From: a virus
Reading direction: 5' to 3' (one strand)
IMG/VR virus record: IMGVR_UViG_3300030102_003729
Location: 1 to 42,900 of that record
Length of the DNA: 42,900 bases
Position 1 is the first letter of the stretch; each line of letters begins with the position of its first letter. The notes beneath the pieces are model-generated. The model was not told the DNA's origin. It did no database searches and saw nothing but the letters and a program-made list of their open reading frames with translations. The translations under genes and the position numbers were made by a program. Below, one piece after another: positions 17,675 through 30,822 of the stretch.

Positions 17675-18715
17675 ATGTTTAGAAATTTTGGAATTGAAAT
17701 AGAATTCATAAATACAAACAGAGATAAGCTTGTAAGGGAAATGCAAGCAGAAGGACTTGAATGTTACTTCGAGGGATATACTCATAGAAGAACATCTCAT
17801 TGGAAAATTGTAACTGACGCTTCAGTTTCAAATGGATATGAACTAGTTAGTCCAATCCTTAATGGAGAAGATGGTCTACTTGATATCAAGAAAGCAACAA
17901 GAGCAATTCAAAGAGCAAGAAGAAACCAAGATATGGATTCAGTAAATAGGTCTTGCGGTCTCCATGTTCATCTTTGTGCAGATAATCTTACAAGCAAAGA
18001 CCTTGGTTGGATTGTAAAAAGATATAAAGATAACGAAGAAAACATTGATAAATTCTTCCCACTTTCAAGAAGGGGTAATGCATACTATTGTAACTCTATT
18101 GATAGGACTTGGCAGAAAATTGATGAGCTTGTAAATAAGCACGAAACAGAACTTTCAAGATATTTTTACTCTTATAATTACTCTAGATTTTCAAAGGTAA
18201 ATTTTTCAAAGGCTTTTCAAACACACAGAACAATAGAATTTAGACAACACTCTGGAACTATTGATTATAACAAAATAGCTAATTGGATTGAATTCCTACA
18301 GAACTTCGTTGAACAATCTATCAAATGCAAACAACAAGGAGGTATCGACCCTAACTACAAACCTAACAAACCTTCAGCTATGTTCTCATCAATCAGAGAG
18401 CAAGTAGCAAGGCTAGGTGGCAAACTTTTCTATCAAGGTTGTTGGAAGATAATAGACGAGAATGGACAGACACAGATAATACAAGATAATTCTGGACAAC
18501 ATAGAAATTGTGGATATGTTCCTCTTTCAAAACTTTATGAGGTAGAAGGATATAAAGGCAAACTTAACAAAGAAAGATTTACAGCTTTTATGAGAACTCA
18601 TTTTGCTAGAACAATAGAAAATTCAGATAGCGACCCTTCACTTTGGGCAGGTCAACCAGAATATGTTAAAGAGTTCTTTAAGATGAGAACAGCTCAACTT
18701 GAAAGGAGTGCTTAA
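17675..18715 (+). CDS. Putative amidoligase (glutamine synthetase-fold)
   Basis: A 346-residue protein with the pattern of the predicted amidoligase family (Amidoligase_2): N-terminal FGIEIEF (residues 4-10), whose glutamates bind metal in this fold; HWKIVTDASVSNGYELVSPIL (about 49-69); SCGLHVHLC (about 98-106); and a later RTIEFRQHSGTID (about 186-198). Family members are predicted to form amide or peptide bonds with ATP, possibly tagging proteins or modifying cell-wall peptides; the phage role is not established. A CAAGGGG site precedes the ATG. It is directly coupled (TAATG) to a gamma-glutamylcyclotransferase-like gene, a pairing known for this family. Confidence 0.82.
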   Translation: MFRNFGIEIEFINTNRDKLVREMQAEGLECYFEGYTHRRTSHWKIVTDASVSNGYELVSPILNGEDGLLDIKKATRAIQRARRNQDMDSVNRSCGLHVHLCADNLTSKDLGWIVKRYKDNEENIDKFFPLSRRGNAYYCNSIDRTWQKIDELVNKHETELSRYFYSYNYSRFSKVNFSKAFQTHRTIEFRQHSGTIDYNKIANWIEFLQNFVEQSIKCKQQGGIDPNYKPNKPSAMFSSIREQVARLGGKLFYQGCWKIIDENGQTQIIQDNSGQHRNCGYVPLSKLYEVEGYKGKLNKERFTAFMRTHFARTIENSDSDPSLWAGQPEYVKEFFKMRTAQLERSA

Positions 18716-19167
18716 TGATAAATTATTACTTCGCTTATGGAAGCAATCTCAACATAGAGCAGATGTCTAGGAGATGCCCAAATGCAGAACCTATTATTTT
18801 AAAAGAACCATTATATATTCCTAATTGGCAATTATGTTTTAGAGGGGTAGCAGATATAGAACCCTGCGACCAATCATTTTTGCCAATAGGATTATGGAAG
18901 ATAACAGAGGATTGTGAAAAAGCTCTGGATAGCTATGAGGGATACCCTCGACTATATGGCAAGATATACTTTCAAATGGAAATACAAAATAAAAAAGAAA
19001 CTATCTTATGTTACCAAATGAATTCTGATAGATACTCTGCACCTTATCAAGTATATTATGATACTATATTACAAGGTTACAGAGATTTCAATTTAGACAC
19101 GAAATACTTAAAACAAGCTAAAAATCGAACTATATCCCTAAAACATCAGATTTTAAAGCTGTTTTAA
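18715..19167 (+). CDS. Gamma-glutamylcyclotransferase-like protein (GGCT/AIG2 fold)
   Basis: A 150-residue protein with the GGCT signature YFAYGSNL (residues 5-12) forming the substrate loop, followed by NWQLCFRGVADIEP, and SYEGYPRLY (73-81) with Glu75 at the position of the catalytic acid. Members cyclise gamma-glutamyl groups to release 5-oxoproline, and so can undo gamma-glutamyl amide links. Because the adjacent gene is a predicted amidoligase, the two could make and remove the same bond (inference; the pairing itself was noted before in comparative genomics). The ATG overlaps the amidoligase stop, with AAAGGAG upstream. Confidence 0.85.
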   Translation: MINYYFAYGSNLNIEQMSRRCPNAEPIILKEPLYIPNWQLCFRGVADIEPCDQSFLPIGLWKITEDCEKALDSYEGYPRLYGKIYFQMEIQNKKETILCYQMNSDRYSAPYQVYYDTILQGYRDFNLDTKYLKQAKNRTISLKHQILKLF

Positions 19168-19175
19168 GCTTCATA

Positions 19176-19206
19176 GAGTACCCATTAATATCCCCAATGG
19201 GTATTC
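19176..19206. terminator. Hairpin between convergent operons
   Basis: TACCCATT (19179-19186) and AATGGGTA (19196-19203) form an 8-bp perfect stem with a 9-nt loop, extendable to 11 bp through G-U. It lies between the ends of the amidoligase/GGCT operon and the leftward 19.2-23.3 kb operon. T-tracts are weak, so bidirectional termination is likely but not certain. Confidence 0.5.
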
Positions 19207-19868
19207 TATCCTTCTTTTTCAACCTCTTTCTCTAGTCTAATCATAGCTTTTGACTTCCAACTTTTATTGTACTCTACATCTTCAAACAACTTTGAAAAGC
19301 CAGTTATATGCTTTAGTCTTAAGAGTTCATCTGCACCCATTCCTAAATGGTTACATATCTCCTCATCTTGCCACCCATTGTCTAACATCTTGAAAACCAT
19401 ATTGGACATTCCATTAACAGAGTGTTTTCCTCTGGCTCTATTATGACGAACTGTTGATGCCATTCTTTCGTTTATATTTTTATCTAGTACTACTATTGGT
19501 AATTTGCCTTTATTCCTTTCAGCTATGTCTGGATTATTTTTACAAGTATAGTACCTATGGAAACCATCTACTATAATATACTTTTTCATTTTTTTATCAT
19601 AAATTGTTACTACTGGTTGTGTATACCCATCATGTTTAATAGATACATATAATAGTTTCATTTCTTGCCCTGCTACTGAATTAGGATTATAGTCATTAGC
19701 TTGTACTTTATCTATATCAACCCATCTTACTTGATTTATAGGTTGTTCTCCTAAACTTGTTAAATTATTTATATTATCTTTTACAATCTCCATATATTCT
19801 ATTTTTTCACTCTCTGATAAACCTTTTATGTCTTCTTCTATTAACTTTACTATTTTACTAACATTCAT
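19206..19868 (-). CDS. IbrB-like ParB/Srx-domain protein
   Basis: A 220-residue protein with a ParB/sulfiredoxin N-terminal domain: VRWVDIDKVQANDYNPNSV (about 46-64), SIKHDGYTQPVVTIYD (about 75-90) and IIVDGFHRYYTC (about 97-108; the G-H-R box). It continues with IVVLDKNINERMASTVRHNRARGKH and a C-terminal HTH-like part (DEEICNHLGMGADELLRLKH). This arrangement fits IbrB, the usual partner of IbrA, here separated from it by one methyltransferase gene. The domain binds DNA or nucleotides in known families. It is the last gene of the leftward operon, ending at the hairpin. The biochemical role is unproven. Confidence 0.75.
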   Translation of the reverse strand: MNVSKIVKLIEEDIKGLSESEKIEYMEIVKDNINNLTSLGEQPINQVRWVDIDKVQANDYNPNSVAGQEMKLLYVSIKHDGYTQPVVTIYDKKMKKYIIVDGFHRYYTCKNNPDIAERNKGKLPIVVLDKNINERMASTVRHNRARGKHSVNGMSNMVFKMLDNGWQDEEICNHLGMGADELLRLKHITGFSKLFEDVEYNKSWKSKAMIRLEKEVEKEG

Positions 19869-20549
19869 TTAAAGCTCCTTAAAGTTTTTAAAATTTGTTA
19901 CGACATAATACTTACATACTTTTGAGGTATCATCTTCTAAATCGGAATTGATTGTAAGACCATATTGTGTTTCATAGTTCATATCTTTGTTTTTTAAATA
20001 ATACGAGAAACCTGATACTCTTGGAAAGATACCATGCGCATTCATTTCTGTTACAATATCTTTTGGAGTAAACTGTATCTGATGCTCTGAAGTGTAACTA
20101 TAATCTTTATGGTTATCTGCATATATTACTGCTATATATTTAACATTATTCTTTTGACCTTTTAGAATATTACAAAAAGCATCTAAACCTATATAATTGA
20201 CTTGACCATATACTGCCAATACAACATCATATTTAATTAAGTCAAAACTAATTTTTGTTATATCTTCTTGCAAAAATTTATGCTTGGGATATTTTTCTTT
20301 TGCATCTTGTATCATACCTTGTGATATATCAACACCCAAATATTTATCTTTATTCAAATTAGCTAATGTAATTATATGTCCTGTACCACAGCCAATATCT
20401 AATATTGTTTCATTCTTTTCTATATTATCAGATATAATTTTGCCTATTATTTTGTCTTCAATCAGATGGGTAGAACATTTATACTTATCATCATATTCTT
20501 GTGAAATGTTATCGTATATACTTTTTATCTTTGCAAAATTACTAATCAT
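19869..20549 (-). CDS. Class I SAM-dependent methyltransferase
   Basis: A 226-residue protein with a Rossmann-fold methyltransferase core: motif I TILDIGCGTG (48-57), acidic motif II LGVDIS (ribose-binding Asp), QEDITKISFDLIKYDVVLAVYGQVNYI as motif III/IV. It ends in a beta-rich region (HGIFPRVSGFSYYLKNKD). The N-terminus (YDNISQEYDDKYK) is typical of small-molecule or type 11 methyltransferases and not of DNA methyltransferases; there is no NPPY or DPPW. It sits between the IbrA-like gene (4-nt overlap) and the IbrB-like gene (adjacent). The substrate is unknown; decarboxylated SAM made by the upstream decarboxylase is a speculative alternative donor. Confidence 0.8.
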   Translation of the reverse strand: MISNFAKIKSIYDNISQEYDDKYKCSTHLIEDKIIGKIISDNIEKNETILDIGCGTGHIITLANLNKDKYLGVDISQGMIQDAKEKYPKHKFLQEDITKISFDLIKYDVVLAVYGQVNYIGLDAFCNILKGQKNNVKYIAVIYADNHKDYSYTSEHQIQFTPKDIVTEMNAHGIFPRVSGFSYYLKNKDMNYETQYGLTINSDLEDDTSKVCKYYVVTNFKNFKEL

Positions 20550-21739
20550 TTTAAAAATTGTTCCTTTATTTGTTTATTATATATTGAGTCTGGTGGATTT
20601 CTTAATGTTCTGCCTTTCTTCCAATCTCTGTAAACAACCAAATAAGGTCTTTGTAAATATGACTCTATTCTTGCAAACTCGTTATCATTTACTAAAATTG
20701 ATTTGATTTGTTCTTTATATAACTCTTTTGGATTGCGTAACATATCGTATAACTTATCATGCTTCTTCCATTCTACTTTAAAATATTCTCTTTGTTTTTC
20801 ATCAATAATTAATTTTTCTGTTAAAAAGTCTCGGTATTCCTTCCAATCCTTAAACATATATGGTAAAGTATTTACCCTTATTAATTCTGTTTTTTCTATA
20901 TGTTTAGCTTGATTGATACCTTTAAGTCTTCTTGTTAACTTATCCCAAGTATGCCCTTCTAACTCGTGAAGATAATGTAAACATTTAACCGCTGTTTCGT
21001 GATGCAAATTTGATACCCTCATATCCTTTACAGGTAAACCATATCTGAAATATTCATTATAGATATTACAATAATTCCAATTATTATCGTGTATAGCTTT
21101 CCAGACATCACTAACTGACCAATCAAATAAAGGATAAAAATTATAATGTTTTTTTCTTTTATTTAATTCTTTACCCCAAGTAATATGTTTATATGTTGCA
21201 CCTGAAGTAAGAGCTGTTAATCTTTGTGGAGCTTCCTCTGCTCTCATACCTGCTAAAAATACTGCAGGCTCATCTGGATATAGTATATCAATAGACTTTA
21301 CAAAATAATTATACCAATACCCTCTCTTTGCTTCCTTCTCTGCTTTACCTTTTAATTCGTGATTGTCTTTTATAGAAATATCTTCTTTTGGTCTCATCCA
21401 TTCTCTGCCCTCCTCCCAAGTTACTAGATAAGGTTCTTCCTGCGATAAAGAATTAGGTAAAAATATTGGCACTTGAATCCAGAGAGGCTTTACTTCATCT
21501 CTTGACATAATCTCTCTCATGTAATCTACAACAGACTCCCACTCTGCTTCTTGGTCAAGAAAATAAACAGGTAATGGCAATCGTTTCTTTTTTCTTGCTA
21601 CTATCAAAGCTAACTCTAATGTTATAGTAGAATCTTTGCCTCCAGAACAACAGACTATAACATTTTTAAATTCATCAAATAAAAACTCTAACCTTTCGAT
21701 TGCAGCATCCCAAACATTTTGGTCTAAATATATTTTCAT
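20546..21739 (-). CDS. IbrA-like PAPS reductase-family protein (DUF3440-like)
   Basis: A 397-residue protein of the PP-loop ATP pyrophosphatase/PAPS reductase superfamily. The P-loop is CSGGKDS (31-37). Then come VYFLDQEAEW, a AGMRAEEAPQRL region with the conserved R-EE, and the core HYNFYPLFDWSVSDVWKAI (DUF3440-like). The C-terminal half (GHTWDKLTRRLKGINQAKHIE..., PPD near the end) fits IbrA. PAPS reductases reduce sulfate; relatives such as DndC/SspD put sulfur into DNA. No cysteine desulfurase or Fe-S partner is present here, so phosphorothioation cannot be claimed. It is flanked by two methyltransferases, overlapping each by 4 nt. Confidence 0.82.
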   Translation of the reverse strand: MKIYLDQNVWDAAIERLEFLFDEFKNVIVCCSGGKDSTITLELALIVARKKKRLPLPVYFLDQEAEWESVVDYMREIMSRDEVKPLWIQVPIFLPNSLSQEEPYLVTWEEGREWMRPKEDISIKDNHELKGKAEKEAKRGYWYNYFVKSIDILYPDEPAVFLAGMRAEEAPQRLTALTSGATYKHITWGKELNKRKKHYNFYPLFDWSVSDVWKAIHDNNWNYCNIYNEYFRYGLPVKDMRVSNLHHETAVKCLHYLHELEGHTWDKLTRRLKGINQAKHIEKTELIRVNTLPYMFKDWKEYRDFLTEKLIIDEKQREYFKVEWKKHDKLYDMLRNPKELYKEQIKSILVNDNEFARIESYLQRPYLVVYRDWKKGRTLRNPPDSIYNKQIKEQFLK

Positions 21740-22353
21740 TTACTTAATCTATCTATTGTTTTTTGTAGTCTTTTCTTATTTAATTCATTGCCATAAAAGG
21801 TCATATTTCTATTTACAGTAGCTTGAGCAGTAAATCCCATTCCACACATAGGGTCTAATACTAATCCCTCTTTAATAGCTAAATAATCAAATATATACTC
21901 TACTAATTTCAAATCCTGAAGTCTTTTACAATCCTCTTTGAATTCATCAGTTAATAGTATATCTGAAGTCTTGCTTAAAAAATGTAAATCACAAGGTCTA
22001 TCCAAAGAACCTGCATTATAATAACAGACAGTAGAACCATTATGTTTAAATCCTACTTCAGTAGCCATTGCTACTATGTCATCATTCCATTGACAACCGT
22101 ATTCTATAACACATTTATCTTTTGAGTATTTGTATATCAAATTAAAAAAATGCTTGATAAAATTACTATACTCTACATCTTCTCTTGGGACTTCATTCAT
22201 TTTAAAATTCATTGTCTGCCAATATCTTAAATTACCCTGTCCCCAAGGTGGGTCTGAATAAATGAAATCAGCTTTTTTATCTAACATTAAATCATCTATA
22301 CCTGACATAATATTTCCATTTTTTACCTTATGATTTTTAATAAGCGTTAACAT
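21736..22353 (-). CDS. DNA N-methyltransferase-like protein (DPPW, beta-type order)
   Basis: A 205-residue protein. The catalytic motif DPPW (34-37, in IYSDPPWGQG) precedes the SAM motif LDPMCGMG (166-173), followed by TFYGNELNKKRL (185-196). This order is that of beta-class amino-methyltransferases that modify adenine N6 or cytosine N4. The region between is short, with no large target-recognition domain, so either it recognises little sequence or the neighbouring ParB-like protein helps. An AAGGAG site precedes the ATG. It lies next to the AdoMet decarboxylase gene, so dcAdoMet as a donor is conceivable (hypothesis). Confidence 0.82.
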   Translation of the reverse strand: MLTLIKNHKVKNGNIMSGIDDLMLDKKADFIYSDPPWGQGNLRYWQTMNFKMNEVPREDVEYSNFIKHFFNLIYKYSKDKCVIEYGCQWNDDIVAMATEVGFKHNGSTVCYYNAGSLDRPCDLHFLSKTSDILLTDEFKEDCKRLQDLKLVEYIFDYLAIKEGLVLDPMCGMGFTAQATVNRNMTFYGNELNKKRLQKTIDRLSK

Positions 22354-22354
22354 T

Positions 22355-22750
22355 TTACTCCTTTATTGTTACTGGTGTATTTGTTTCTTGTAATAACTTA
22401 AATTCTTTCTCTCTATCATAAAATTTATATCTTACATTTGTGGCATTGAATTTACTAACCATTTGCCAGACATTATCTAAATTTAGAGTGGAACAAGTAT
22501 AAACATCTAATTGCATTTTTGAAGGATTAGGTTCATCCCATATATGCAAAGCTATGTGAGAAGTTTCTATTGCACAAATACAAGTCAATCCTCTATTGCC
22601 TTCAGTATGACAATATACTGCTTTTGGTTCTATCAATGCTTTCATATTTAAAATATTTATTAGGTCATTAATCCATTTTTCTGCTAATTGTTCATTTTCT
22701 GGTGGAGTATCAATATTACCCATTAATAATAAATGCTTATGGTCTAACAT
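22355..22750 (-). CDS. speH: S-adenosylmethionine decarboxylase (SpeH-type)
   Basis: A 131-residue proenzyme of the prokaryotic AdoMetDC family, close to the usual length. The self-cleavage region is TSHIALHIW: Ser64 would become the pyruvoyl group after cleavage between Thr63 and Ser64; His69 and Cys86 (DVYTCS) occupy the other catalytic positions. It converts SAM to decarboxylated SAM, the aminopropyl donor of spermidine synthesis; I see no spermidine synthase in the window. It lies between a ParB-like gene and a DNA methyltransferase gene with 1-nt gaps. So it could support host polyamines, deplete SAM against restriction, or feed an aminopropyl modification of DNA. Only the first is known biochemistry. 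Confidence 0.88.
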   Translation of the reverse strand: MLDHKHLLLMGNIDTPPENEQLAEKWINDLINILNMKALIEPKAVYCHTEGNRGLTCICAIETSHIALHIWDEPNPSKMQLDVYTCSTLNLDNVWQMVSKFNATNVRYKFYDREKEFKLLQETNTPVTIKE

Positions 22751-22751
22751 A

Positions 22752-23342
22752 TTAATATCCTGTTATCGTAAATTCGTGTTTGCATTTAGGACATATAACT
22801 TCTAGTCCTTCCTTATGTTTTGCAGTAGTTACTCCTTGTATGGATTGGTCTATTTTATTTTGTGCTGAATCTAAATCTTTTCCTGTTACATCTGCATTTA
22901 TCATAGCATTCATATTAGGTGAGAAATTGCCAAAATTTATATCTTGTTCTAATCCTATTGTAGTTAAATCAAATTTTATATCATTTAAATATTTTAACTC
23001 TGACATATATAATTCATAGTTCCATTCTGAATTTTCTGCTATTTTATTATCTGCTATTACATATGCTTTTTTCTGGTCTAAACTTAATCCATGTAATCTT
23101 AAACAAGGTATACTATCAATTCCTGTTTCGAAATAAGTTTTGTCTAATAATTTAAATGCTTCTACTCTACCATGACCTGCTAATATCATATTATTTTCAT
23201 CTATGATAATTGGATTAGTAAACCCAAATTCTTTTATACTTTTTGATAGTTGAATTATTTGCTCTTTATTATGTATTCTACTATTTCTTTCGTAAGGTTC
23301 TAACTCATCTACTTTGAGATATTCAACTATTAATTTTGTCAT
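22752..23342 (-). CDS. ParB-like nuclease-domain protein with C-terminal zinc-ribbon-like end
   Basis: The start at ATG 23342 has CAGGAAAAAAT upstream; a longer reading from 23399 would pass the palindrome and lacks this site. The protein has 196 residues. The ParB/Srx domain is at about 9-70: VDELEPYERNSRIH, SIKEFGFTNPIII, ILAGHGRVEAFKLL (the GHGR box). The linker LSLDQKKAYVIADNKIAE is typical of phage ParB-methyltransferase proteins. The end has CPKCKHEF, half of a zinc ribbon. In many phages this domain is fused to a DNA methyltransferase; here the two are separate genes in one operon, with AdoMetDC between. It is the first gene of the operon. Confidence 0.8.
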   Translation of the reverse strand: MTKLIVEYLKVDELEPYERNSRIHNKEQIIQLSKSIKEFGFTNPIIIDENNMILAGHGRVEAFKLLDKTYFETGIDSIPCLRLHGLSLDQKKAYVIADNKIAENSEWNYELYMSELKYLNDIKFDLTTIGLEQDINFGNFSPNMNAMINADVTGKDLDSAQNKIDQSIQGVTTAKHKEGLEVICPKCKHEFTITGY

Positions 23343-23392: not shown

Positions 23393-23430
23393 TATTCAAT
23401 GTAAATAAATAATATTTTTTGGAGGGAAAT

Positions 23431-24465
23431 ATGATTAGTTATGATTATGAAACATTTAGTAAAAGTGTAAATAAAAATGCTTTATTAAGAGATGATACTA
23501 TAAGTAGTATGAAAAATTTTTTTGTTATTGATGGGAAACAAGCTGTATTGAATGGCAAAGTATATGATATGACAGAATCTTTCCATAACAATTTAGCTAG
23601 GAAATTTGACATACCTATTCATTATTATAGAAGAATAAAAAAGGAAGAACCTAAATTATTTGAAAAAACAATAAATACTTTGAACAAGAATAGTAATCCT
23701 CAAATGTTTAGAAAATATAGAGTAAAGAAAAAATTTAGACTTAAAAATATTATCAATGGTCAATCCTCTGGTAATTTAAGAGCATTATTGTCTGATAGAT
23801 ATAAGATAATGGACAACAAAGAAATACTAAAACATTTAGAACCTAAATTTGATAAAAAGAATTTTGTTTTATTATCTGGTTATGAAGACGAAAATGTTAT
23901 GAGTTGCAAGATTAGATTTAGTAATTTAATAGGTTCTGTAAGACAAGGAGATACTGTCTATGGTGGTATATACTTGAGAAATTCTGAAGTAGGTCGTTCC
24001 TCTCTGACTATATCAGCTTTAATATATAGATTAGTATGTACTAATGGCTTAATGATACCTAATACAGAAACGATATATAATACTTTTCATTTAGGTGCTA
24101 AAAACCCTATAAATTATACACCTAATTATATTGTACCAACTTCAGCTTTGGACAATATAGATTTAGTTATAAATCATTTATTGAGTAAAAATCTATTCAA
24201 AGATAAATTAGAGTCATTAAGACATACAACTACTCAATCCATCAAAAAAGTAAAATACGATAAGATAAAAGAATTTTATGCTACTACTGATGATGAGCAA
24301 GAAATGATTAAACAAGAATTTGAAACAGAAAATGATTTTACTTTATATGGTTTAATACAAGCATTTACATCTACTGCAAGAAAAATAAAAAATATACAAA
24401 GGTCTTTATACCTTGAAAAAATTGGCGGTAGATTAATTTATAATAGTGAGAAAATTTATATATAA
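23431..24465 (+). CDS. DUF932 phage/plasmid-like protein
   Basis: A 344-residue protein; the ATG at 23431 has GGAGGGAAAT upstream, so the longer TTG start at 23419 is rejected. It shows the DUF932 pattern: N-terminal LARKFDIPIHYYRRI (about residues 52-66), a NLRALLSDRYKIMDNKEIL block (about 113-131) that is the most typical part of the family, and YGGIYLRNSEVGRSSLTISALIYRLVCTNGLM (about 176-207). The family is common in phages and plasmids, often near replication genes; its molecular function is not established. It is followed at 3 nt by a small HTH-like gene. Promoter not clear; a palindrome lies upstream. Confidence 0.85.
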   Translation: MISYDYETFSKSVNKNALLRDDTISSMKNFFVIDGKQAVLNGKVYDMTESFHNNLARKFDIPIHYYRRIKKEEPKLFEKTINTLNKNSNPQMFRKYRVKKKFRLKNIINGQSSGNLRALLSDRYKIMDNKEILKHLEPKFDKKNFVLLSGYEDENVMSCKIRFSNLIGSVRQGDTVYGGIYLRNSEVGRSSLTISALIYRLVCTNGLMIPNTETIYNTFHLGAKNPINYTPNYIVPTSALDNIDLVINHLLSKNLFKDKLESLRHTTTQSIKKVKYDKIKEFYATTDDEQEMIKQEFETENDFTLYGLIQAFTSTARKIKNIQRSLYLEKIGGRLIYNSEKIYI

Positions 24466-29644: not shown

Positions 29645-29958
29645 GCAGTAGCTCCCATATAAGCTCCAACAATTCCTGCTCCTGATATATAAAATAAATT
29701 ACTAATATCACTTAGTGCTTCTATTCTCTCTATGGTTACAAAAGGCATAAACATCATAGCAGTAAATAAACCCATTCCAACTAAACTAAAAGTTGCCATT
29801 CTTCTTTGGGCTCGGTGCTTTCTTAATTCATGTTCAAGTGTTTTTATTTCCTTCATATTTTCTATTTCTTCATCTGATACAATTCCATCTTTATTAACAT
29901 CATATTCAGCATATTTAGATTTTTTCTGAAGTTTTTTTTGTGTATTTTTTTGTTTCAT
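29626..29958 (-). CDS. Membrane protein with EF-hand-like calcium loop
   Basis: Read from ATG 29958 (110 residues); a reading from TTG 29997 adds 13 residues but has no better site. A basic N-terminus leads to DVNKDGIVSDEE (20-31), a full EF-hand loop with Asp1, Asn3, Asp5, Gly6, Val8 and Glu12. Then come a charged helix and two hydrophobic segments (about 54-76 and 87-107). A calcium-binding, membrane-bound protein is thus likely (inferred), perhaps in lysis control or as a virion membrane component. It overlaps the MT-A70 gene by 44 nt. Confidence 0.65.
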   Translation of the reverse strand: MKQKNTQKKLQKKSKYAEYDVNKDGIVSDEEIENMKEIKTLEHELRKHRAQRRMATFSLVGMGLFTAMMFMPFVTIERIEALSDISNLFYISGAGIVGAYMGATAWMSRK

Positions 29959-30532
29959 TTCCCCAAGTGTCCCAACCTTTATTTTCTGTTCTTGCAAACA
30001 ATTCTATTCTAGGTAAATCGCCACAAAGTGCAACTATTTTATCTCGTATTACATCTGGCTTTCTGCTATGCTCTCTGATTGGCTCGTATATAATTTGATG
30101 TATAGAATTAGATTGTTTTTTTATGCTACCCTTTTTAGCTATCAAACATATCTCTGCATTTGACCTAGTCCAATATCCTAAACCCATAAATGAGTCAAAA
30201 GAATCAGTAGGAAAAAAAGATGTCTGATTTATATTAAAATTTTTATTTGTTTTTATCCAAACAAAACCGCAAGTAGAATATTTAAAACCCCAATTTTTTA
30301 TTACTTCAAAACTTTCTTGTAAGATAGGAAATGTAACCCATAAAAATAGAATGCAATTCTTATCTATTATATTTTGTATTGGTAAATTTTTTATCCAGTC
30401 CATACTTTGACATTCATAATGATTATCTGCACTTTTTTTTTTGCCTTTATCTGAATAAGTTTTAAATGTCCAAGGGGGGTCTGCATATATTATATTATAT
30501 TTTTTATTGGGTAAATTTATTTGCCAAGACAT
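29915..30532 (-). CDS. MT-A70-family adenine methyltransferase
   Basis: Read from ATG 30532 (205 residues); the alternative TTG 30550 would add six residues. Motif IV is DPPW at 18-21 (YNIIYADPPWTFKTYSDKGK). It continues with HYECQSMDWIKNLP, ILFLWVTFPILQE and GFKYSTCGFVWIKTNK, which are marks of the MT-A70 family as used by many phages for N6-adenine methylation. The end EHSRKPDVIRDKIVALCGDLPRIELFAR...WDTWGNE (key residues) is highly characteristic. It may protect phage DNA from restriction. It overlaps the upstream unknown gene by 16 nt. Confidence 0.92.
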   Translation of the reverse strand: MSWQINLPNKKYNIIYADPPWTFKTYSDKGKKKSADNHYECQSMDWIKNLPIQNIIDKNCILFLWVTFPILQESFEVIKNWGFKYSTCGFVWIKTNKNFNINQTSFFPTDSFDSFMGLGYWTRSNAEICLIAKKGSIKKQSNSIHQIIYEPIREHSRKPDVIRDKIVALCGDLPRIELFARTENKGWDTWGNETKKYTKKTSEKI

Positions 30533-30822
30533 CTTTTGGTAAAAGAGCAATTTTTTTGTTCTTCAAAAAATATACTTCTTGTTCCATCTGGGTGTTCATA
30601 GGTACACATATGTCTTCCATCTCTATATTTATAGTCAATTAATTTACAATCAGATACCCTTTTATTAAAATCATCAATACTTTTTTTAATTGTATCATCG
30701 TGCTTATCTTCATTTGCACATACAATCAAATCACGCATAATATAATCACAAGCATTTGATAAAGTAGCAATAGGATTATAAGCAATAGACATAAATATTA
30801 CTGATGCAATAGTATCTATCAT
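30517..30822 (-). CDS. Unknown Cys-containing protein (101 residues)
   Basis: A protein with a hydrophobic N-terminus (MIDTIASVIFMSIAYNPIATL) that could be a membrane or export segment, then a charged part with several Cys (CANEDKHDD, CKLIDYKYRDGRHMCTYEHPDGTRSIFF, CSFTKRC). The Cys and N-terminal hydrophobic run might mean secretion with disulfides, which would be unusual for a gene set between a regulator and a methyltransferase. No family recognised. It starts with a 4-nt overlap to the HTH gene. Confidence 0.55.
   Translation of the reverse strand: MIDTIASVIFMSIAYNPIATLSNACDYIMRDLIVCANEDKHDDTIKKSIDDFNKRVSDCKLIDYKYRDGRHMCTYEHPDGTRSIFFEEQKNCSFTKRCLGK

Follow-up and report, generated by a model that had tools for sequence, protein, structure and literature searches.

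A phage operon built around IbrA and IbrB as a putative DNA-hypermodification cassette with exchangeable cargo

On balance we take a six-gene operon of a marine, siphophage-like virus to be one allele of a modular cassette for post-replicative DNA hypermodification in tailed phages. The operon lies between the primase-helicase and the terminase in a 42.9-kb virus record (31% GC; 42,900 nucleotides, the whole stretch of DNA that was analysed, hereafter the window), where terminase, portal, major head and tape-measure genes are present. The assignment to this class of function is moderately supported; the exact chemistry we infer, as we do DNA being the substrate, the order of the steps, an amine being the attached group and the masking from host defence. 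The core of the cassette would be IbrA and IbrB, usually together with ParB1, and the cargo of the window would be the methyltransferases mt3 and mt5 and a SpeD homologue. A large branch of phage IbrA proteins, often annotated as PAPS reductases or as co-activators of gene expression, is hereby placed at the heart of a shuffling, predicted DNA-modification cassette.

Operon layout and gene families

All six genes point leftward (minus strand), in the order ParB1 (22752..23342), a SpeD-type pyruvoyl-dependent decarboxylase (22355..22750), mt3 (21736..22353), IbrA (20546..21739), mt5 (19869..20549) and IbrB (19206..19868), with intergenic gaps of 1, 1, -4, -4 and 0 nt. A hairpin on the same strand (19173..19209, -21.5 kcal/mol, z = -5.0) stands at the end of the operon between convergent genes, but it has no U-tract and intrinsic-terminator prediction did not call it. 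The preliminary description of this DNA had read the region as a single operon of six leftward frames with almost no space between them, closed by a hairpin, in which an IbrA/IbrB pair is merged with a ParB/methyltransferase module and the content fits DNA modification, and the reading frames, family matches and folding energy bear it out on all these points.

ParB1 has a ParB/Srx fold and a C-terminal CPxC...F motif, and matches PHROG 620 (E 2e-47), the ParB_N match in Pfam being weak. Its start is the ATG at 23342, with an in-frame TTG at 23399, and residues C203, P204, C206 and F210 (numbered from the TTG) are kept in the alignment. It also matches the N-terminal half of the ParB-methyltransferase of PHROG 498 (E 2e-40) and the N-terminal part of a PADLOC type II methyltransferase model (E 2e-26). 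Judged by these matches, ParB1 is the ParB half of the known ParB-methyltransferase fusions. The small protein mt3 (N6_N4_Mtase, E 1e-6) carries DPPW (34-37, motif IV) and then DPMCGMG (167-173, motif I, of the form DPxCGxG), which is the order of a beta-class amino-methyltransferase, (D/N/S)PP(Y/F/W) ahead of an FxGxG-like motif. D34PPW37, D167P168, G171 and N189E190 are invariant, and no separate recognition domain is found in mt3. The other methyltransferase, mt5, is a class I SAM enzyme (Methyltransf_25, E 5e-14). It also has a hit to a phage family labelled tRNA methyltransferase (E 4e-12), and no CmoA model is among its best 25 NCBIfam matches. Further cassettes carry relatives of mt5, in many cases as fusions with a domain we call FAKT, and mt5 is predicted to be a tailoring enzyme.

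IbrA combines PAPS_reduct (E 3e-12) with DUF3440, and IbrB, its ParB/Srx-fold partner, carries ParB_N and matches PHROG 2159 (E 2e-73). The two families occur together in nearly all relatives, and mt5 sits between them in the window. No protein of the cassette is better conserved than IbrB, which has a mean column identity of 67% over 12 phage homologues and the motifs DGFHR and RHNRARG. IbrA resembles PP-loop ATP-pyrophosphatases and adenylyltransferases; S32GGKDS37, which fits the ATP-binding signature SGGxDS, is invariant in the alignment, other PP-loop residues are kept, and the nearest solved structures are CysD (1ZUN) and FAD synthase (8ROM). There is no conserved cysteine in the alignment of the cassette branch. 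The IbrA of the window has four cysteines, which are unconserved among cassette IbrAs (the most frequent one is found in 34%), and the catalytic ECGxH motif of CysH is absent from it and from all 167 IbrAs examined. Most bacterial IbrAs have a C-x-C...C set (54 of the 77 from genomes and plasmids), but it is missing from ten prophage-type cassettes among these. Since the cassette IbrA has neither conserved cysteines nor ECGxH, a role as sulfurtransferase or as CysH was judged unlikely on these active-site residues. The sulfur-bearing bases that the preliminary description suggested looking for find no backing, and adenylation is the better guess for what this enzyme may do.

The pair also has a life outside cassettes. 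In bacteria IbrA-IbrB is usually a bare pair, and standalone ibrAB is found on plasmids of the Enterobacteriaceae E. coli and Klebsiella and in many gut bacteria. These bare pairs, and the 13 of 96 phage IbrA loci without recognised cargo (some on truncated contigs), mean that IbrA and IbrB by themselves may serve some purpose other than modifying DNA.

Core and cargo across phages

IbrA, mt3 and SpeD served as queries against viral contigs, alongside a search with an IbrA alignment, and the relatives so obtained were annotated with profiles made from the window genes and from the proteins found in the variable slots; bacterial genome contigs were searched with IbrB. We counted 96 distinct phage IbrA loci, many of them on truncated contigs. 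IbrB accompanies IbrA in 92 of the 96 and ParB1 in 78, and terL is nearby in 60. The cargo varies, mostly between ParB1 and IbrA: a glycosyltransferase in 56 loci, the FAKT domain of about 90 residues in 53, an amino-methyltransferase in 33, a 2OG-Fe-like oxygenase in 24, a GNAT in 20, an mt5-type SAM methyltransferase in 16 and SpeD in 7. Among the glycosyltransferases are members of a phage glucosyltransferase family. All six genes of the window were seen together in one other locus only, the contig L094, where a stretch of 4.5 kb holds the same families in unchanged order, mt5 again between IbrA and IbrB, and FAKT is fused to SpeD. The match of gene order in L094 and the recurring IbrA-IbrB-ParB1 neighbourhood make the grouping more than chance, and the conserved neighbourhood in related phages, on which the preliminary description had staked its reading beforehand, is there. 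Its claim of a single system stands as far as the operon goes; it does not stand as a fixed set of six genes, as IbrA and IbrB (with ParB1) are constant and the rest is exchangeable cargo. A search of phage records with the DNA of the operon gave short pieces only.

The cargo is a cluster of enzymes that could create a handle on a base and enzymes that could tailor it, the oxygenase, glycosyltransferase, amino-methyltransferase, GNAT, SAM methyltransferase and SpeD being interchangeable. The HxD...H residues are invariant in the oxygenase family (OG2), whose AF2 model (pLDDT 94) matches proline hydroxylases and AspH in Foldseek (best E 2.9e-4). In the 45 loci with well-covered flanks, to which the co-occurrence test was limited, OG2 is found with a glycosyltransferase in 14 of 14 cases (P 0.004) and with an amino-methyltransferase in none of 14 (P 0.0006), the P values being indicative only because the loci share ancestry. 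One locus of truncated coverage in the wider set (L034) holds both OG2 and an amino-methyltransferase. Most simply read, the pattern in the 45 loci means that either a hydroxylase or an amino-methyltransferase would act first, and that the decoration added would differ between cassettes, being a sugar, an acyl group, a methyl group or an amine.

FAKT is absent from the window and is in some phages fused to mt5, GNAT or SpeD. It has no significant sequence match in Pfam, PHROG or PDB, one query gave no tblastn match in phage records, and its AF2 model (pLDDT 93) has no Foldseek match at E <= 0.001, the best VIA Z being 4.2. Hints of a plant NAC domain were non-significant (Pfam NAM E 0.046, Foldseek E ~0.5) and the assignment was not kept. 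A SNF2-helicase was seen with IbrA/IbrB in Streptococcus and Flavobacterium phages; as a component of the cassette it was dropped, since only 5 of 70 bacterial-type pairs have it.

Similar loci are present in isolates. Microbacterium phage Hendrix has two glycosyltransferases, a FAKT-methyltransferase, a GNAT, IbrA, IbrB and two ParB1 genes, in a locus that spans the ends of the record, and its genome is circularly permuted (PMC7302621). Mycobacterium phage Bernardo, Arthrobacter phage Laroye and Bacillus phage 055SW001 show ParB-IbrA-ParB arrangements, with an annotated methyltransferase in the latter two, and prophage-type cassettes are found in the genomes of Flavobacterium sedimenticola YZ-48 and Treponema bryantii B25. 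Our search of the accessible literature found no paper that describes this cassette; it may have been noticed in silico before, most likely by Iyer et al. 2013.

The SpeD homologue

The decarboxylase of the window (AdoMet_dc, E 5e-12) has the motif ETSH...WDE...QLDVYTC and keeps the self-processing serine (S64) and the catalytic histidine and cysteine (H69 and C86). For phage homologues of SpeD, activity on arginine or ornithine in place of SAM has been demonstrated (PMC9992855, PMC10407285). Among phage records, all matches to the window protein come from pelagiphages, apart from one in an uncultured marine phage. The pelagiphage homologues are its closest relatives in isolates and include that of HTVC201P (44.5% identity), a proven arginine decarboxylase (PMC9992855). 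The motif of the window protein, ETSHIALHIWDE...QLDVYTCS, follows that of HTVC201P, ETSHIAFHSWDE...QLDVYTCS. The AdoMetDC signature ESH..HTWPE, seen in the solved structures 2III and 1TLU, is replaced by TSH..HIWDE. The signature includes the proline by which PMC10407285 tells AdoMetDC from ADC, and we assigned its column by our own reading of that text. Four diagnostic residues of the SpeD-derived ornithine decarboxylase, Gln, Thr, Phe and Tyr, are given there as well; by our own assignment of columns the window protein has T63, Q80 and Y84, but like HTVC201P it carries Leu81 at the place of Phe, so that the set is incomplete. The cassettes of L164, L167 and L168 hold a different SpeD, with TSH and QFD.YSC, and all four ornithine decarboxylase residues as we read the same description.

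In the tree, where some branches are long, all cassette SpeDs fall apart from the proven phage AdoMetDCs (100/100), the two cassette types stay apart from each other, and the window protein groups with HTVC201P at 82/92, which is not a starred branch. Residues, proven relative and tree together make an amine, and not decarboxylated SAM, the likely product, and the enzyme is probably an arginine (or ornithine) decarboxylase. The name AdoMet decarboxylase used earlier is thus right for the family and probably wrong for the activity, as the residues diagnostic of AdoMetDC are missing and a proven arginine decarboxylase is among the closest isolates. SAM decarboxylation was judged unlikely on the active-site residues, and aminopropyl transfer likewise finds no support (PMC9992855, PMC10407285). 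The two types, one with ADC-like and one with ODC-like residues, suggest that SpeD has probably been recruited into cassettes at least twice.

Proposed function, alternatives and known systems

The cargo comes from enzyme classes that known DNA hypermodification also uses, which favours that reading, and no enzyme that modifies nucleotides was seen in the window by inspection, as would suit action after replication. We hypothesize that ParB1 and mt3, a split ParB-methyltransferase fusion, engage phage DNA and act on a base, and that IbrA, helped by IbrB, spends ATP on adenylating, and thereby activating, this base or a group that it bears. The SpeD homologue would produce either agmatine, from arginine, or putrescine as the amine to be coupled at the activated site, and mt5 would methylate the attached group. 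Elsewhere the same core would be served by a 2OG-Fe hydroxylase and a glycosyltransferase, or by a GNAT acyltransferase, and by the time the DNA is packaged its restriction sites would be hidden by the bulky base. A bolder version is that IbrA/IbrB form a new route, a DNA counterpart of tRNA lysidine and agmatidine, in which a PP-loop adenylyltransferase activates a base, or a group it bears, to which SpeD-made agmatine or putrescine is coupled, with sugars or acyl groups in sister phages, giving combinatorial DNA modifications; in this specific form we regard it as rather unlikely and put it forward tentatively.

A regulatory or host-takeover operon, with IbrA and IbrB as co-activators of gene expression and the methyltransferases and SpeD as unrelated accessory genes, would fit the label "Co-activator of prophage gene expression" in phage records and the standalone ibrAB on E. 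coli and Klebsiella plasmids. It leaves unexplained the constant linkage to glycosyltransferases, 2OG oxygenase, amino-methyltransferases and GNATs in one operon, and the mutual exclusion of oxygenase and amino-methyltransferase, and we think it unlikely. Plain anti-restriction methylation is doubtful to the same degree. Here ParB1 and mt3 would methylate adenine N6 or cytosine N4, SpeD would supply polyamines for phage growth and IbrA/IbrB would be otherwise employed; the DPPW and DPxCGxG motifs of mt3 agree with this, ParB-methyltransferase fusions are common in phages (PMC12704722), other marine phages carry SpeD homologues at loci without IbrA, and in HTVC201P the gene adjoins ribonucleotide reductase. 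However, many cassettes are without mt3 and have a 2OG oxygenase and a glycosyltransferase in the same slot, and SpeD is present in 7 of the 96 cassettes, compared with 143 of the 50,697 phage records as a whole, with no correction for relatedness.

A cassette for RNA (tRNA) or protein is less probable again: PP-loop ATPases and SAM methyltransferases are common in tRNA modification, and mt5 has its tRNA methyltransferase match, but ParB1 and mt3 match DNA methyltransferase families, the cassette often adjoins terL and its cargo includes glycosyltransferases of a phage glucosyltransferase family. We consider it very improbable that IbrA is a DndC/SspD-like sulfurtransferase for phosphorothioate or other sulfur modification. 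The PP-loop superfamily is common to them and there is a weak match to the DndC model (E 2e-5), but against this stand the cysteine pattern described above, the adenylyltransferases as nearest solved relatives, and the lack of a cysteine desulfurase, DndD/DndE or SspB/SspC among the six genes and, by eye, in the rest of the window. Least credible of all is auxiliary metabolism, with IbrA as PAPS reductase in sulfate assimilation and SpeD as a polyamine enzyme; phage records do annotate IbrA as PAPS reductase (cysH), and a phage PF01507 protein, not necessarily an IbrA, has been called a sulfur AMG (PMC10434257), but ECGxH is missing from every IbrA examined and the genomic context is DNA-related.

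If the hypermodification reading is true, a chemistry would for the first time be assigned to IbrA/IbrB, many phages would turn out to contain unknown bases, and pyruvoyl arginine/ornithine decarboxylases would have been recruited for DNA decoration and not for polyamine supply. The question is open to a direct test by LC-MS in phage Hendrix, which was isolated on Microbacterium foliorum and has a cassette of this kind.

To our knowledge none of the known hypermodification relatives, be it that of phiW-14, the glucosylated bases or the CmoX/CmoY system of 2025, uses IbrA/IbrB. The modification of phiW-14 works from hydroxymethyl-dU. The putrescinylthymine of this Delftia phage (PMC5977210) and other hmU-derived hypermodifications place an amine on a phage DNA base, as is predicted here, but no hydroxymethyl-dU precursor enzymes were seen in the window. 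The CmoA/CmoX/CmoY system for 5-carboxymethylcytosine-glycine, which includes an AMP-forming ligase (PMC12783734), is likewise a phage cassette with a SAM enzyme, a chemical handle on DNA and often a ParB protein; here an amino-methyltransferase (mt3, with DPPW) stands in place of a C5-methyltransferase with an SPPC motif, and the PP-loop IbrA in place of the CmoY ligase. Dnd/Ssp phosphorothioation (PMC10853773) also joins a PP-loop enzyme with a ParB-superfamily protein, in a DNA modification that here is predicted, whereas our operon has no conserved cysteines, desulfurase, DndD/DndE or SspB/SspC. The phage SpeD-derived arginine/ornithine decarboxylases (PMC9992855) are of the same family with similar diagnostic residues, but there the gene is a polyamine gene beside ribonucleotide reductase and here it lies inside a modification cassette. 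With the ParB-DNA methyltransferase fusions (PHROG 498; PMC12704722) the operon has ParB1 and the amino-methyltransferase in common, but here each has a gene of its own and both stand in linkage with IbrA/IbrB. The IbrA/IbrB pair of bacteria and phages unites the same two families, PAPS_reduct with DUF3440 and ParB_N; the cassette differs in an IbrA without the C-x-C...C of most bacterial ones, and in the company of ParB1 and a modification cargo.

The amidoligase gene, its partner and other genes outside the operon

The operon is adjoined, on the opposite (plus) strand, by genes for an amidoligase (PHROG 2443) and for what we take to be a gamma-glutamylcyclotransferase-like protein (17675-19167). 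Such a pair flanks the IbrA/IbrB cassette, on one side or the other, in 12 of the 45 well-covered loci, and it might be a component of the cassette. At the other end, a divergent PHROG 1362 gene (23419-24465, plus strand), presumably DUF932-like, adjoins ParB1, and its counterparts adjoin the cassette in loci L004, L005 and L007 too. Besides mt3, the window encodes a second methyltransferase with a DPPW motif, outside the operon at 29915-30550 (minus strand); on visual inspection it resembles MT-A70.

The FAKT domain

An orphan domain of about 90 aa with the motif FAKTMPxxPHxY, here called FAKT, is found in locus L003 (2003-2269) and in at least 50 further cassettes (alignment A5), and is missing from the operon in the window. 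Its fold is predicted confidently, no clear match to that fold was found, and in some phages the domain is fused to a methyltransferase, GNAT or SpeD. Among the well-covered loci FAKT is less frequent where the amidoligase is present (4/14 loci, versus 28/31 without it; P 6e-5, which is indicative since the loci are related).

IbrA neighbours, subfamilies and annotation

A SNF2-like helicase gene immediately precedes IbrA/IbrB (or IbrB-IbrA) in Flavobacterium and Streptococcus phages (L084, L085, L088, L089) and in L189, L190, L192, L194 and L201. A set of marine phage contigs that lack IbrA (L049-L052, L058-L062, L066-L070 and others) has such a gene beside a SpeD homologue, the two lying on opposite strands. 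A haloarchaeal Actinarchaeum plasmid (L175, 2892-7074) carries two genes that resemble IbrA, together with one IbrB-like and one methyltransferase-like gene.

Most bacterial IbrAs (L189-L255, from bacterial genomes) have a conserved C-x-C...C set, which the phage-cassette branch lacks. Judged from these residues, IbrA comprises two subfamilies, possibly with different chemistry. In phage records, e.g. NC_047977 and NC_027125, IbrA-family proteins are labelled phosphoadenosine phosphosulfate reductase although they lack the ECGxH motif of CysH, and this may affect surveys of viral "cysH" genes.
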